Source: an uncultured Syntrophaceae bacterium | GTDB taxonomy: Bacteria; Desulfobacterota; Syntrophia; Syntrophales; UBA2185 | Assembly (NCBI GenBank): GCA_903893135.1 | Contig: CAITLA010000280.1 | Coordinates: 1 to 34,620, forward strand | Reading direction: 5' to 3' | DNA: 34,620 nt | Notes under the pieces: generated by a model | What the model saw: only the letters and a program-made list of their open reading frames with translations | Database searches by the model: none | What the model was told of the DNA's origin: nothing | Shown here: in pieces, positions 6,416 to 23,920 of the stretch | Layout: every line of letters starts with the position of its first letter | Numbering within the stretch: the first letter of the stretch is position 1 | Translations under genes and position numbers: made by a program

Positions 6416-7726
6416 ATGAAAACAATAACTATCGGATTAATCGGTTTCGGTACTATAGGAACAGGGGTCGTAAAGCTGCTTCAAGATAACGGTGAGGTCA
6501 TCGAAAATCGCCTAGGCGCAAGGCTCTTTTTAAAGAAGATTGCCGATCTTGATATTACAACGCCAAGACAGGTTGCCGTAGAGAAAGATTTGTTAACTAC
6601 AGATGCGAAAGTGATCCTGGACGATCCTGAAATATCCATAGTCATAGAGCTAATAGGCGGGTATGAGCCTGCGCGCTCCTTCATCCTTGAGGCTATCCGG
6701 AAAAGAAAGCACGTAGTAACCGCCAATAAAGCCCTTTTAGCTACCTACGGAAACGAAATATTCCGGGCTGCTGAGGCAGAACAGGTCGACATCGGCTTCG
6801 AAGCCAGTGTAGGCGGTACAATCCCTATCATTAAGACCTTGAAGGAAAGCCTGGCAGCGAATCGTATCAAATCGATTTTCGGCATTATCAACGGTACAGC
6901 CAACTATGTATTGAGCAAAATGACGGATGAGAAGAAATCCTTCCAAGTTGTGCTGAAGGAAGCCCAGAAGCTCGGATTCGCAGAAGCCGATCCGACATTT
7001 GATATCGAAGGTATCGATACGGCTCACAAGCTTGCCATCACGTTATCATTGGCATACGGGAAAAGGGTAAGGCTTGAAGACGTTCACAGAGAAGGCATAT
7101 CAGGCATTAGTCAGCAGGACATCGAATTTGCCAGGGAACTCGGGTATCGGATAAAGCTTCTTGCCATTGCCATCGGTAAGGGTGACTGCATCGAGGCGAG
7201 GATTCATCCGACTATGATTCCCCTTAGCCATCTTCTGGCAAACGTCAATGGAAATTTCAATGCATTTCATATCGTCGGTGATGCGGCGGATTCAGTGTTT
7301 CTCTATGGCCAGGGCGCAGGAATGATGCCCACAGCAAGCGCCGTAATGGGTGATGTAATCGATATCTCGCGTAATCTGCAGAGAGGCGCATCCGGACGCG
7401 TACCCGCCCGCTCACTTAGGGAAAATGTAATCGATGATATCAAGCTAATGCCATTTGACGAAATCATTACAAACTACTACTTCCGTTTTTCTGCCCTGGA
7501 CCGGCCAGGCGTCCTCTCCAGAATAGCGGGAATTCTCGGTGCAAATGATATAAGCATTGCCGCCGTTATCCAAAAGGGCAGGCAGAAGGCAGGCCCTGTT
7601 CCTATTGTCATGACTACGCACAAGTCGAAGGAAAGAGATGTTCAGAAAGCTATAACGGAAATAGATCAACTTGAAATCATTCACGGAAAAACGATATTGA
7701 TAAGAATTGAAGACGAAAGGTTATAA
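6416..7726 (+). CDS. hom: homoserine dehydrogenase with C-terminal ACT domain
   Basis: Reduces aspartate semialdehyde to homoserine with NAD(P)H, at the branch to threonine and methionine. The 436-residue protein has the Rossmann motif GLIGFGTIGTGVV (8-20), the VVTANKALLATYG segment, GGTIPIIKTLKESL, GIINGTANYVLSKM, and the active-site region EADPTFDIEGIDTAHKLAI. A C-terminal ACT domain (about 355-433, beginning FRFSALDRPGVLSRIAGIL) suggests allosteric control by an amino acid such as threonine; that control is inferred from the family. Size and domain order match the monofunctional Hom found in many bacteria. It leads a rightward group with the ApgM-like gene 66 bases downstream. Shine-Dalgarno upstream of the ATG at 6416 is weak. 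Confidence 0.97.
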   Translation: MKTITIGLIGFGTIGTGVVKLLQDNGEVIENRLGARLFLKKIADLDITTPRQVAVEKDLLTTDAKVILDDPEISIVIELIGGYEPARSFILEAIRKRKHVVTANKALLATYGNEIFRAAEAEQVDIGFEASVGGTIPIIKTLKESLAANRIKSIFGIINGTANYVLSKMTDEKKSFQVVLKEAQKLGFAEADPTFDIEGIDTAHKLAITLSLAYGKRVRLEDVHREGISGISQQDIEFARELGYRIKLLAIAIGKGDCIEARIHPTMIPLSHLLANVNGNFNAFHIVGDAADSVFLYGQGAGMMPTASAVMGDVIDISRNLQRGASGRVPARSLRENVIDDIKLMPFDEIITNYYFRFSALDRPGVLSRIAGILGANDISIAAVIQKGRQKAGPVPIVMTTHKSKERDVQKAITEIDQLEIIHGKTILIRIEDERL

Positions 7727-7792
7727 TGGTTTCGAAGAAATGACCTTTTTAGCCTCATCCCATTCATTTATTTGAGGAGCAATCTGGCTGTA

Positions 7793-9022
7793 ATGAAATA
7801 TATTATCCTCCTCGGCGATGGTATGGCGGATTATCCCATACAAGAACTGGACGGTAAGACACCCCTGGAATACGCACATACCCCATATATGGACAGGATT
7901 GCGAAAGAAGGAACATTGGGCATGATCGACACCATTCCGGCCGGTTTTTCTCCGGGCAGTGATGTGGCAATCATGAGCCTCCTTGGTTATGACCCCATGG
8001 AATGCTATACTGGTCGAGGACCTTTGGAAGCGGCCAACATGGGGGTTCAGCTTGGAGTCGATGACGTAGCCTTCCGCTGCAATCTTGTGACCCTTAGGGG
8101 AGATGCAGAACATATAATGGAAAACTTTACATCCGGACATATAACTACTGAAGAAGCGAAGATAATCATAAATGATATCAATAAAGAACTGGGTAGCACA
8201 AATTTTCAATTCTATCCTGGAGTGAGTTACAGGCATCTCTTTGTCTGGAGGGATGGTAAAGCACTGCTTGAGACAACTCCGCCCCATGATATCACCGGCA
8301 ATGCGGTCAAAGATTATCTGCCCAGGGGAGAGGGGAAGGAAGAAATAAGAGGACTCATGGAGCGTTCGCAGGTTTTTTTGCGCGATCATCCTGTAAACCA
8401 GTTACGCATCGCAGAAGGCAAAAAGCCCGCAAATTCGATATGGCTTTGGGGGCAGGGGAGGGCGCCGAAATTTGCCAAACTGACGGACAAGTACGGTTTG
8501 AACGGGGGCATGATATCGGCTGTTGACCTTCTGAATGGCATCGGTATTTACGCCGGCCTCAAAGTCATACGCATTGACGGTGCGACGGGTTATGTAGATA
8601 CCAACTATATTGGAAAGGCAAGAAAAGCTCTCGATGCCTTAAGAGACACCGATTTTGTATTCGTCCATGTTGAGGCCCCTGACGAAATGGGACATGAAGG
8701 AAATGTAGCTGGAAAAATCCGGGCCATTGAAGATTTTGACGAGAAGATCGTAGGCGCCGTCTTGAATGAAATTTATGGACTGTCTCCCTTCAGACTGCTG
8801 GTTTTAAGCGATCACCATACGCCCATCAGCCTGAGGACCCATACATCGGACCCGTCTCCCTTTGCGGCGCTGTCTTCTGATGAACATGAGAATTTGAGAA
8901 ACGGCTTAGCATTTAGTGAAGTATCGGCACTGCTCAGTGGCGTGAATATCTCTCCTGGTTACCTTCTGATGGATCACTTCATAAAGAATTGGAGAGGATT
9001 TATTGAAGAGAAATCGAGTTAA
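7793..9022 (+). CDS. apgM: ApgM-type phosphoglycerate mutase homolog, proposed homoserine kinase
   Basis: A 409-residue member of the alkaline-phosphatase superfamily in the archaeal-type cofactor-independent phosphoglycerate mutase branch. It starts KYIILLGDGMADYP (metal-binding D in GDGMAD), keeps the putative serine nucleophile region FSPGSDVAIMSLLGYDP, and ends with the metal ligands VHVEAPDEMGHEG and LVLSDHHTPISLRTHTSDP. Two roles are possible: 3-phosphoglycerate/2-phosphoglycerate interconversion, or homoserine phosphorylation. A TIGRFAM family of such proteins was proposed, from gene neighbourhood, to be homoserine kinase. The position 66 bases after hom, and no thrB in view, favour the second. 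I chose the ATG at 7793 because MKYIILLGDG is the normal family start; an in-frame TTG lies at 7772. A GAGGAG lies about 13 bases before the ATG. Confidence 0.88.
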   Translation: MKYIILLGDGMADYPIQELDGKTPLEYAHTPYMDRIAKEGTLGMIDTIPAGFSPGSDVAIMSLLGYDPMECYTGRGPLEAANMGVQLGVDDVAFRCNLVTLRGDAEHIMENFTSGHITTEEAKIIINDINKELGSTNFQFYPGVSYRHLFVWRDGKALLETTPPHDITGNAVKDYLPRGEGKEEIRGLMERSQVFLRDHPVNQLRIAEGKKPANSIWLWGQGRAPKFAKLTDKYGLNGGMISAVDLLNGIGIYAGLKVIRIDGATGYVDTNYIGKARKALDALRDTDFVFVHVEAPDEMGHEGNVAGKIRAIEDFDEKIVGAVLNEIYGLSPFRLLVLSDHHTPISLRTHTSDPSPFAALSSDEHENLRNGLAFSEVSALLSGVNISPGYLLMDHFIKNWRGFIEEKSS

Positions 9023-9419
9023 CATACGTGTCATTTACGCTGATACAGATGCCATGGGCATCGTCTATCACACCAATTACATTAAATGGTTTGAAATTGG
9101 GAGAACGGAGCTCCTCAGAAGTGTGGGCATAGTCTATGCTGAAATGGAAGCACAGGGTTATAACCTGCCCTTGACAGAGGCGTATTGCAACTACCTTTCT
9201 CCAGCCAAATATGACCAAATCATCGTTGTTGAAACTGAATTGGAATATCTCAAGAGGGCGAGCATGAAATTTGTCTATACAATCTGGGATGAAGACAGGC
9301 AAAAAGCCCTTGTTGAAGGTTACACGATCCATGCATGCACAAACAACCTGGGCAAGATAGTAAGGATTCCATCCTTCATCCTTGAAAAAGTCAACGAACA
9401 AATGCAAATAAAATTTTGA
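9003..9419 (+). CDS. ybgC: YbgC-type acyl-CoA thioesterase (4HBT hotdog fold)
   Basis: A 138-residue hotdog-fold thioester hydrolase. The signature YADTDAMGIVYHTNYIKWFE (12-31) contains the catalytic Asp (D16) and the conserved G-x-V-Y/H-x-x-N-Y pattern. In E. coli YbgC hydrolyses short- to medium-chain acyl-CoA and is encoded with tol-pal; here the neighbours differ, so the substrate is open. The only start in frame before the motif is TTG at 9003, which overlaps the upstream gene by 20 bases and has a good GGAGAGGA ribosome binding site (8991-8998) just ahead. The TTG start and overlap suggest translational coupling. No signal peptide. Confidence 0.9.
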   Translation: MKRNRVNIRVIYADTDAMGIVYHTNYIKWFEIGRTELLRSVGIVYAEMEAQGYNLPLTEAYCNYLSPAKYDQIIVVETELEYLKRASMKFVYTIWDEDRQKALVEGYTIHACTNNLGKIVRIPSFILEKVNEQMQIKF

Positions 9420-13867: not shown

Positions 13868-14812
13868 ATGGCAGAAGACTACTACAAGTTGTTAGGTCTG
13901 GATAAAAGGGCGACCGCCGAAGACATAAAGAAGGCCTACAGAAAACTGGCCCTGAAATGGCATCCTGACAAGAACCCCAATAATAAGGCTGCTGAAGAGA
14001 AGTTCAAGAAAATCAGTGAAGCCTATGCCGTACTCAGTGATCCCAAGAAAAGAGAAGAATATGATACTTTTGGATCTGCCGATCAATTCCGGCAGAGATA
14101 TACCCAGGAAGATATTTTCAGAGGCTTCGATCTGAACGATATCCTAAGAAGCTTCGGCTTCGGCGATCCTGGTGGAGCAGGGGCGAGAACTTTCAGAACA
14201 GACAGGGGAGGGGGCTTCCCTTTTACGCAGGGCGGCCAATTTTCCGATATATTCGAGGGAGAGCGGCAGAGATTTTCACGGGTGCCACAGAAGGGACAGG
14301 ACTTCGAATATAACCTCTCAATAACATTGGAAGAATCCGTATTGGGTGCAGAGAAAAAATTGTCCCTGCAAAAAAACGATGCCGTCGAGGAAATCAACTT
14401 CAAGATACCGCCGGGCATTAATTCAGGAAAGAAATTGAGGTTAACTGGCAAGGGCGGTCCCGGCATTGATGGAGGCCCTCCGGGTGATTTATATATAAAT
14501 ATCAGCATTATGCCCCATCCAATTTTTGCGAGGGACGGGAATGACATCTATATCGACAAGGTAATCAATTTCTCTCAGGCCGTTCTTGGTACGAGCATTG
14601 ATGTTCCAACAATAGAGGGAGTAACGAAAAGAATAAAGATCCCCCCCGGAACGCAGAACAATACGAAGATTAGAATGAAGGGCTTCGGAGTACCGCGATT
14701 GAAGGGTACGGGTAAGGGAGATCAATTTGTCAAGATCATCGTAGATGTACCGAAAAAGCTGACGGAGAGGCAAATTGAGCTGGTAAGGCAGCTGGCTGAA
14801 GAAGGTTTTTAG
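13868..14812 (+). CDS. DnaJ-family co-chaperone without zinc finger (CbpA type)
   Basis: A 314-residue J-domain protein that would stimulate DnaK ATPase activity and deliver clients. The J domain (about 3-68) has the HPD motif at 32-34 (WHPDKNPN) and the helix IV region. A Gly/Phe-rich stretch follows (about 95-130, e.g. [13 protein letters not shown]). Two C-terminal substrate-binding beta domains include [30 protein letters not shown] and [14 protein letters not shown]. No CxxCxGxG zinc-finger repeats are present, so this is a type II DnaJ like E. coli CbpA rather than DnaJ itself. AGGA lies 5 bases before the ATG. dnaK and grpE are not nearby. Confidence 0.93.
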
Positions 14813-23326: not shown

Positions 23327-23920
23327 GTGAGAATCTATTTATTCCTGTTAATTTGTGTGTCTGTGCTTCTACATACCGATGCTTTTGCTGACTGTATCAA
23401 GGGAAATTGTAAGAATGGCGAAGGGACCTATGTTCATCTCAATGGTTCGGTCTATGAGGGTCAACATAAGGATGGCAAACGTGAGGGTCAAGGAACTTAC
23501 ACCTACAGAGATGGTACAAAGTATGTTGGTCAATTTAAAGAAAGCAATTTTGACGGACGAGGTGTCTATACAGTTCCTAACGGTGAAAAATACGAAGGTG
23601 AGTTCAAAAACGGTAAACGTGATGGAACAGGGATATTGATCTATGCCGATGGATCAAAATATGAAGGACAATTTAAAGACGATAAGCGAAGCGGAACCGG
23701 GGTATTGCTCTATGCCGACGGCATTAAGTATGCCGGCCAATTTCAAGACAATTTACTGAACGGCCAAGCTGCTGTGATTTTTCCGGATGGGAGAAGAATA
23801 GAAGGCCAATTTAAGAACGACAGGCTTGACAATAAGGGCATCCTGACATACCCGGACGGAAAGACACAACAGGTGGAGCAAACAGGCACAAATACCTTTA
23901 AGATTGTTATTGAGAAGTGA
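23327..23920 (+). CDS. secreted MORN-repeat protein
   Basis: A 197-residue protein with a clear signal peptide (RIYLFLLICVSVLLHTDAFA, cleavage before DC). A partial repeat and then six complete 23-residue MORN repeats follow (residues 40-177), each of the form G-x-x-Y-x-G-x-F-K-x-x-x-x-x-G-x-G-x-x-x-Y-x-D/N. MORN repeats form an extended beta-sheet scaffold; in bacteria their binding partners are mostly unknown. The sixth repeat is divergent (RRIEG). Two Cys flank the first partial repeat (C23, C28). The start is GTG at 23327 with AGGG about 8 bases upstream. It follows the radical SAM gene by 65 bases, same strand. Confidence 0.9.
   Translation: MRIYLFLLICVSVLLHTDAFADCIKGNCKNGEGTYVHLNGSVYEGQHKDGKREGQGTYTYRDGTKYVGQFKESNFDGRGVYTVPNGEKYEGEFKNGKRDGTGILIYADGSKYEGQFKDDKRSGTGVLLYADGIKYAGQFQDNLLNGQAAVIFPDGRRIEGQFKNDRLDNKGILTYPDGKTQQVEQTGTNTFKIVIEK
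23444..23857 (+). repeat. six tandem 69-base units encoding MORN repeats
   Basis: Six in-frame units of 69 bases (23 codons) encode successive MORN repeats; units 3 and 4 are the most alike at protein level (GEKYEGEFKNGKRDGTGILI and GSKYEGQFKDDKRSGTGVLL). The DNA has diverged considerably, so copy-number slippage is probably not frequent. Confidence 0.85.

Follow-up and report, generated by a model that had tools for sequence, protein, structure and literature searches.

A phosphoglycerate-mutase-fold protein encoded beside hom as a probable homoserine phosphotransferase of the ThrB2 family in Syntrophales

We analysed a window of 34,620 nucleotides, contig C280 of the Syntrophales MAG G000 (2.96 Mb in 313 contigs; completeness 99.99%, contamination 5.86%). 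We conclude that the gene following hom in this window most likely represents ThrB2 (TIGR02535) in Syntrophales and encodes a phosphotransferase dedicated to homoserine, in place of ThrB. This role is favoured over that of a mutase, or over a dual role, because residues shared by the mutases are replaced and other mutase candidates are present. The idea of a homoserine kinase is not new, as TIGRFAM, GapMind (for BT2402) and the name 'ThrB2' have proposed it before, and the window protein is a well-supported, putative addition. Homoserine kinase is one of the steps most often apparently missing from amino-acid pathways. Here, a whole order has ThrC, lacks both profile-searchable classes of ThrB and carries TIGR02535 beside hom, never as its only candidate for a mutase. 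What had been a guess at the level of the family thereby becomes a proposal that names residues and can be tested. The name 'cofactor-independent phosphoglycerate mutase', used in databases, is misleading if the proposed role is true and would be corrected.

The hom-thrB2 gene pair and its neighbourhood

The upstream gene, hom (6416-7726, + strand), encodes a homoserine dehydrogenase of 436 aa with a C-terminal ACT domain, as identified by profile and Pfam matches (NAD-binding, 70 bits; Homoserine_dh, 222 bits; ACT, 40 bits; PRK06349, 543 bits). No Rfam match to a threonine riboswitch or attenuator near hom was obtained within the window. The thrB2 candidate (7793-9022, + strand) is intact and encodes a protein of 409 aa that belongs to the ApgM family (TIGR02535/PRK04200) of the alkaline phosphatase superfamily. 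Its longest ORF (7772-9022) opens with an in-frame TTG, and the ATG at 7793, about 66 bases from the hom stop codon, appears to be the better start, because the TIGR02535 match begins there at profile position 1 and so does the conserved MKYIILLGDGMADYP.

The protein matched TIGR02535, 'proposed homoserine kinase', with 548 bits over model positions 1-397 of 397, against a curated NCBI cut-off of 446.3 bits. It also matched PRK04200, which carries the mutase name given above as its NCBI equivalog name, with 573 bits (cut-off 426), TIGR00306 with 520 bits, above the cut-off of that model, and the Pfam families Metalloenzyme (143 bits) and PhosphMutase (206 bits). Neither the GHMP nor the APH-type ThrB family was among its profile matches. 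The AlphaFold2 model (pLDDT 89.8) had Pyrococcus PH0037 (2zkt_B) as its closest solved fold, with a TM score of 0.81 by query and 0.86 by target. The domain matches, the shared strand and this fold match confirm the original prediction that hom is followed by a protein of the phosphoglycerate mutase fold. The nearest named relatives of the protein are Syntrophaceae MAGs (95% identity across the protein), and the host was therefore assigned to Syntrophales.

We found hom directly upstream of the homolog and on the same strand in all 78 related loci with readable upstream DNA, and the pairing is therefore not due to chance. The related loci number 80 in total; hom was not matched at two, one of which lies on a contig that starts 73 bases upstream. 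Among the 78 readable loci the median spacing is 18 bases, and at 36 of them the two genes overlap or lie within 5 bases. On the other side, a gene for a 4HBT (YbgC/FadM-type) acyl-CoA thioesterase (9003-9419, + strand; profile and Pfam matches) overlaps the 3′ end of thrB2. It is the usual thrB2 neighbour in Syntrophales and has no evident tie to threonine. Since this thioesterase, a TPR protein and indolepyruvate oxidoreductase (iorAB) are also commonly kept downstream in related loci, the Syntrophales neighbourhood alone is weaker evidence than the threonine-operon placement in other species.

Such placement was seen among eight human-gut relatives, some from plasmid records of Bacteroidales and others from 'phage' scaffolds that are unverified and look bacterial. 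The arrangement thrA-X-thrC is annotated in L200 and L201 and was found by tblastn in L202, while L207 carries hom-X-aspartokinase and L205 X-aspartokinase; in L203 the TIGR02535 gene adjoins a MetY-like gene. In a tree built without BT2402 itself, the window protein and L200-L207, including the Bacteroidales members, formed one clade (support 0.98).

Several other genes of the window were noted. The prfB gene (33570-32475, − strand) has a canonical programmed +1 frameshift site, CTTTGAC, preceded by a GGGGAG Shine-Dalgarno-like stretch (about 33507-33490), so that the ORF list misses the first prfB codons. A DnaJ homolog (13868-14812, + strand) has the J and C-terminal domains and no zinc-finger match in Pfam, and is thus CbpA-like. 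A MORN-repeat protein (23327-23920, + strand; Pfam, 124 bits), here in a bacterial genome, is encoded next to a B12-binding radical SAM protein.

Active-site residues retained and replaced

The metal ligands D9, D297, H301, D340, H341 and H350 and the nucleophile S56 were invariant in 106 of 106 Syntrophales TIGR02535 homologs, bearing out the earlier claim that the metal ligands and nucleophile serine of the superfamily are intact. The codon of Ser56, within a GSD motif, lies at 7958-7960 (+ strand); this serine, which is also present in both solved archaeal mutases, is presumed by analogy with the superfamily to be the phosphorylated nucleophile. In hhalign comparisons, D297/H301 aligned with the NGDMVGHTG motif of GpmI and D340/H341 with its ADHG motif; this alignment covered the metal-binding core only and gave no placement of transferase-domain residues on the substrate contacts of GpmI.

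In contrast to the true mutases, seven conserved positions differ (116, 146, 217, 219, 245, 294 and 298), with Arg, His and Lys among the residues lost and Asp, Glu and Trp among those gained. PRK04135, 2zkt, 3idd and L208, a plasmid copy of the PRK04024 type, have R116, H146, R219 and K294 in common. All 106 Syntrophales TIGR02535 proteins instead carry H116, Y146, W219 and E294, together with W217, D245 and E298. The signature substitutions are absent from PRK04135, 2zkt, 3idd and L208. By alignment, the corresponding codons of the window gene (all + strand) are those of His116 (8138-8140; Arg in true ApgM mutases and His, Asp or Glu in TIGR02535), Tyr146 (8228-8230; His in the mutases), Trp219 (8447-8449; Arg in the mutases) and Asp245 (8525-8527; Ala or Pro in the mutases and Ser in L208). 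Codons 294-298, EAPDE (8672-8686; alignment and hhalign), encode Glu294, which is Lys in the mutases, the metal ligand Asp297 and Glu298, so that E294 and E298 flank D297 in the sequence. Similarly, all eight gut relatives carry Y146, W217, W219, D245, E294 and E298, and position 116 is H, D or E.

The changed residues may contact the substrate, and the acidic D245, E294 and E298 may recognise the ammonium group of homoserine in a site that holds Arg, His and Lys in the mutases. If the acceptor is an amino acid and not a phosphoglycerate, the enzyme would require less basic character and acidic partners for the ammonium, and the observed changes run that way.

Homoserine kinases, threonine synthase and other mutases in Syntrophales genomes

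We searched the window genome and 40 Syntrophales relatives (41 genomes) with profiles, family by family. None of the 41 had a GHMP-type ThrB (TIGR00191) above the cut-off, against 11 of 14 control genomes with such a score, and APH-type ThrB (TIGR00938) was likewise found over the cut-off in none of the 41. Threonine synthase (ThrC) exceeded its cut-off in 38/41 genomes, and TIGR02535 in 34/41, with partial copies in two more (G009 and G028). A true ThrB in the host was rejected, as its weak GHMP matches are IspE (C28, where the gene adjoins prs), a protein similar to heptose kinases (C164) and, within a polysaccharide cluster, a GHMP protein whose gene neighbours one of the ThrC/cysteate-synthase-like kind (C210); the strongest GHMP match among the relatives (L141, 241 bits) is likewise IspE and not ThrB. 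In this last cluster (L096, 2816-4922, on C210), the GHMP kinase-like gene overlaps the ThrC/cysteate-synthase-like gene, and the surroundings, with NeuB-like, aminotransferase and formyltransferase-like ORFs, resemble a surface-sugar cluster; the pair possibly serves decoration with an amino-acid phosphate.

A housekeeping thrC was not found in the window MAG, in which the best match reached 52 bits. Because thrC is present in all three genomes of the same genus, we rejected a real absence from the host and attribute the lack to a probable gap in the assembly. Two further genomes, G025 (98% complete) and G027 (92% complete), have ThrC and neither class of ThrB nor TIGR02535, and must hold some other homoserine kinase or have gaps in their assembly; inspection of the ORFs around thrC in both revealed no candidate kinase. 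A shikimate-kinase-like homoserine kinase has been described in Desulfovibrio (DvMF_0971; PMC5764234).

Another candidate phosphoglycerate mutase was present in 36 of 36 genomes carrying TIGR02535, those with partial copies included. The candidates are GpmA, GpmI with its parts in either the conventional or the permuted order, or a second ApgM, which is mostly of the PRK04135 type and scores about 150-180 bits against TIGR02535. In the window genome this second ApgM is intact, distinct from the window protein and of the PRK04135 type; we joined its 402 aa from the ends of contigs C260 and C55. The two halves share an identical 47-aa overlap, and the joined protein has 65-97% identity to 21 relatives. 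With this second ApgM intact across two overlapping contigs, the window protein as the sole mutase of the cell was rejected. The only PF00300 protein of the genome resembles phosphatases (PspA, CobC) and not GpmA, and its gpmI appears reduced to a remnant. In the carriers G008, G010 and G018 the sole alternative is the permuted GpmI, a putative mutase, and in G014 the intact alternative is a divergent ApgM. Taken together, the absence of ThrB over the cut-off in all 41 genomes and the further mutase candidate in the host and every carrier support the suggestion in the original prediction of a non-orthologous substitute for ThrB.

GpmI itself appears to be circularly permuted in about 20 of the 41 genomes (L181:413-2152, + strand; also L180 and L182-L191) and has the conventional order in six Syntrophales genomes. 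In the permuted form, profile residues 213-504 come first and residues 2-211 follow, mostly in one ORF of about 530-600 aa. GNSExGH, the metal-ligand motifs and HVTYFLNG are kept, the summed TIGR01307 score of 486 bits is above the cut-off, and AlphaFold2 with three sequences as input gave a pLDDT of 49. We recognised no literature report as describing such a permutation. The remnant of a permuted gpmI in the window genome (L199, about 1270-1530, − strand; about 20650-21030 of contig C208) looks like the first ~10 codons joined to the last ~50 (MSRAVRNAFRKG... GKVVSVIGRYWSMDREENW), and thus like an internal deletion or a misassembly. We also observed a third type of ApgM in G014 and G026 (L168:249-1607 and L173:222-1553, both − strand; TIGR00306, 323 and 340 bits), which has neither the mutase nor the ThrB2 signature, with Q at 219, K at 294 and no R at 116.

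Proposed function, alternatives and known systems

L-homoserine, made by Hom, would be the acceptor of the phosphoryl group. By analogy with the superfamily, two metals would be held by D9, D297, H301, D340, H341 and H350, and Ser56 would take the phosphoryl group from a donor and pass it on to an alcohol, here presumably the side-chain hydroxyl of homoserine. The product would be O-phospho-L-homoserine, the substrate of threonine synthase. We know of no ATP site in the superfamily, so a donor must be postulated; our guess is phosphoenolpyruvate or another glycolytic phosphate rather than ATP. In a wider and more tentative reading, which we would put somewhat short of even, homoserine is phosphorylated in Syntrophales and other bacteria with ThrB2 by a metal-dependent phosphoserine enzyme whose donor is not a nucleotide but, for instance, phosphoenolpyruvate, a mechanism not known from established amino-acid kinases. 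The signature H/D/E116, Y146, W217, W219, D245, E294 and E298 would then mark where the acceptor changed from phosphoglycerate to an amino acid.

Genetic and genomic data from other groups bear on the family. BT2402 mutants of Bacteroides require threonine, BT2402 failed to complement E. coli thrB, and 29 of 148 prototrophs apparently lack ThrB, 15 of them having TIGR02535; the same study, GapMind, quotes the TIGRFAM curators as suggesting a donor such as phosphoenolpyruvate (PMC7311316). The original prediction was right that the family had already been proposed by neighbourhood to be homoserine kinase, and the Bacteroides genetics add to this. In gut genomes the family, named ThrB2 (Q5LHR7), occurs in 300 genomes, 278 of which are without thrB, and ThrB2 and ThrB are complementary there (PMC9026213). 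Archaeal-type iPGMs of bacteria, three of them in Syntrophus aciditrophicus, have been counted as mutases (PMC2964296). In the literature we found no biochemical proof or enzyme assay for any TIGR02535/ThrB2 member.

We weighed other functions against this one. An ordinary glycolytic or gluconeogenic phosphoglycerate mutase, as the PRK04200 name implies, with an incidental hom pairing, would agree with the fold and family of proven archaeal mutases (the 2zkt and TIGR00306 matches) and with the retained metal and nucleophile residues. It is nevertheless highly improbable, given the other candidate in every Syntrophales carrier, the replacement of R116, H146, R219 and K294 in all TIGR02535 proteins examined and the recurrence of the hom pairing in distant phyla. 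A protein acting both as mutase and as homoserine kinase, for example with 2- or 3-phosphoglycerate as phosphate donor to homoserine, would account for the kept fold and general chemistry and supply a donor, with glycerate as the by-product; we consider it quite unlikely, because the conserved basic positions are lost and other mutase candidates are present throughout, so that a mutase function need not have been maintained. Of the earlier suggestion that the pairing supports a kinase or a dual role, the kinase part thus stood, whereas the dual role lost ground with the replacement of residues 116, 146, 219 and 294.

The protein might instead be a related amino-acid phosphotransferase or phosphatase with another role in the metabolism of the aspartate family, for example an L-threonine kinase (CbiU) or an enzyme of a methionine-tied step. 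This would fit the TIGR02535 protein Dehre_1608 of Dehalobacter, whose gene lies in a corrinoid operon and for which the CbiU role has been put forward (PMC4285132), the MetY-like neighbour in L203 and the lack of thrB complementation by BT2402. We regard it as very unlikely for the window protein, as hom is the neighbour in all 78 readable Syntrophales loci, neither tested class of homoserine kinase (GHMP or APH) is present in the Syntrophales genomes, and threonine rescues the BT2402 mutant (PMC7311316).

As a dedicated homoserine phosphotransferase, the window protein would share its reaction product with the classical GHMP and APH-type ThrB enzymes, but it is not homologous to them and has no ATP-binding GHMP domain or APH domain. 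With the ApgM mutases (PH0037/2zkt, T. acidophilum 3idd/3kd8, PRK04024 and PRK04135) it has in common the fold, the metal ligands, the nucleophile serine, R95, N97 and R147, whereas their R116, H146, R219 and K294 are here H (or D/E), Y, W and E, and D245 and E298 are gained. PhpG, the CMP-5′-phosphonoformate:3-phosphoglycerate phosphonoformyl transferase (NF038358), belongs to the same ApgM family and gives a precedent for an altered donor or acceptor, but the window protein reaches 221 of its 545 cut-off bits and the pathway is unrelated. To TIGR02535/ThrB2 (BT2402), the likeness consists of a score over the curated cut-off, hom or thrA neighbours, the active-site signature and the shared clade; unlike the members in thr operons, the Syntrophales gene has hom as its one partner, with thioesterase-TPR-iorAB downstream and thrC located elsewhere.
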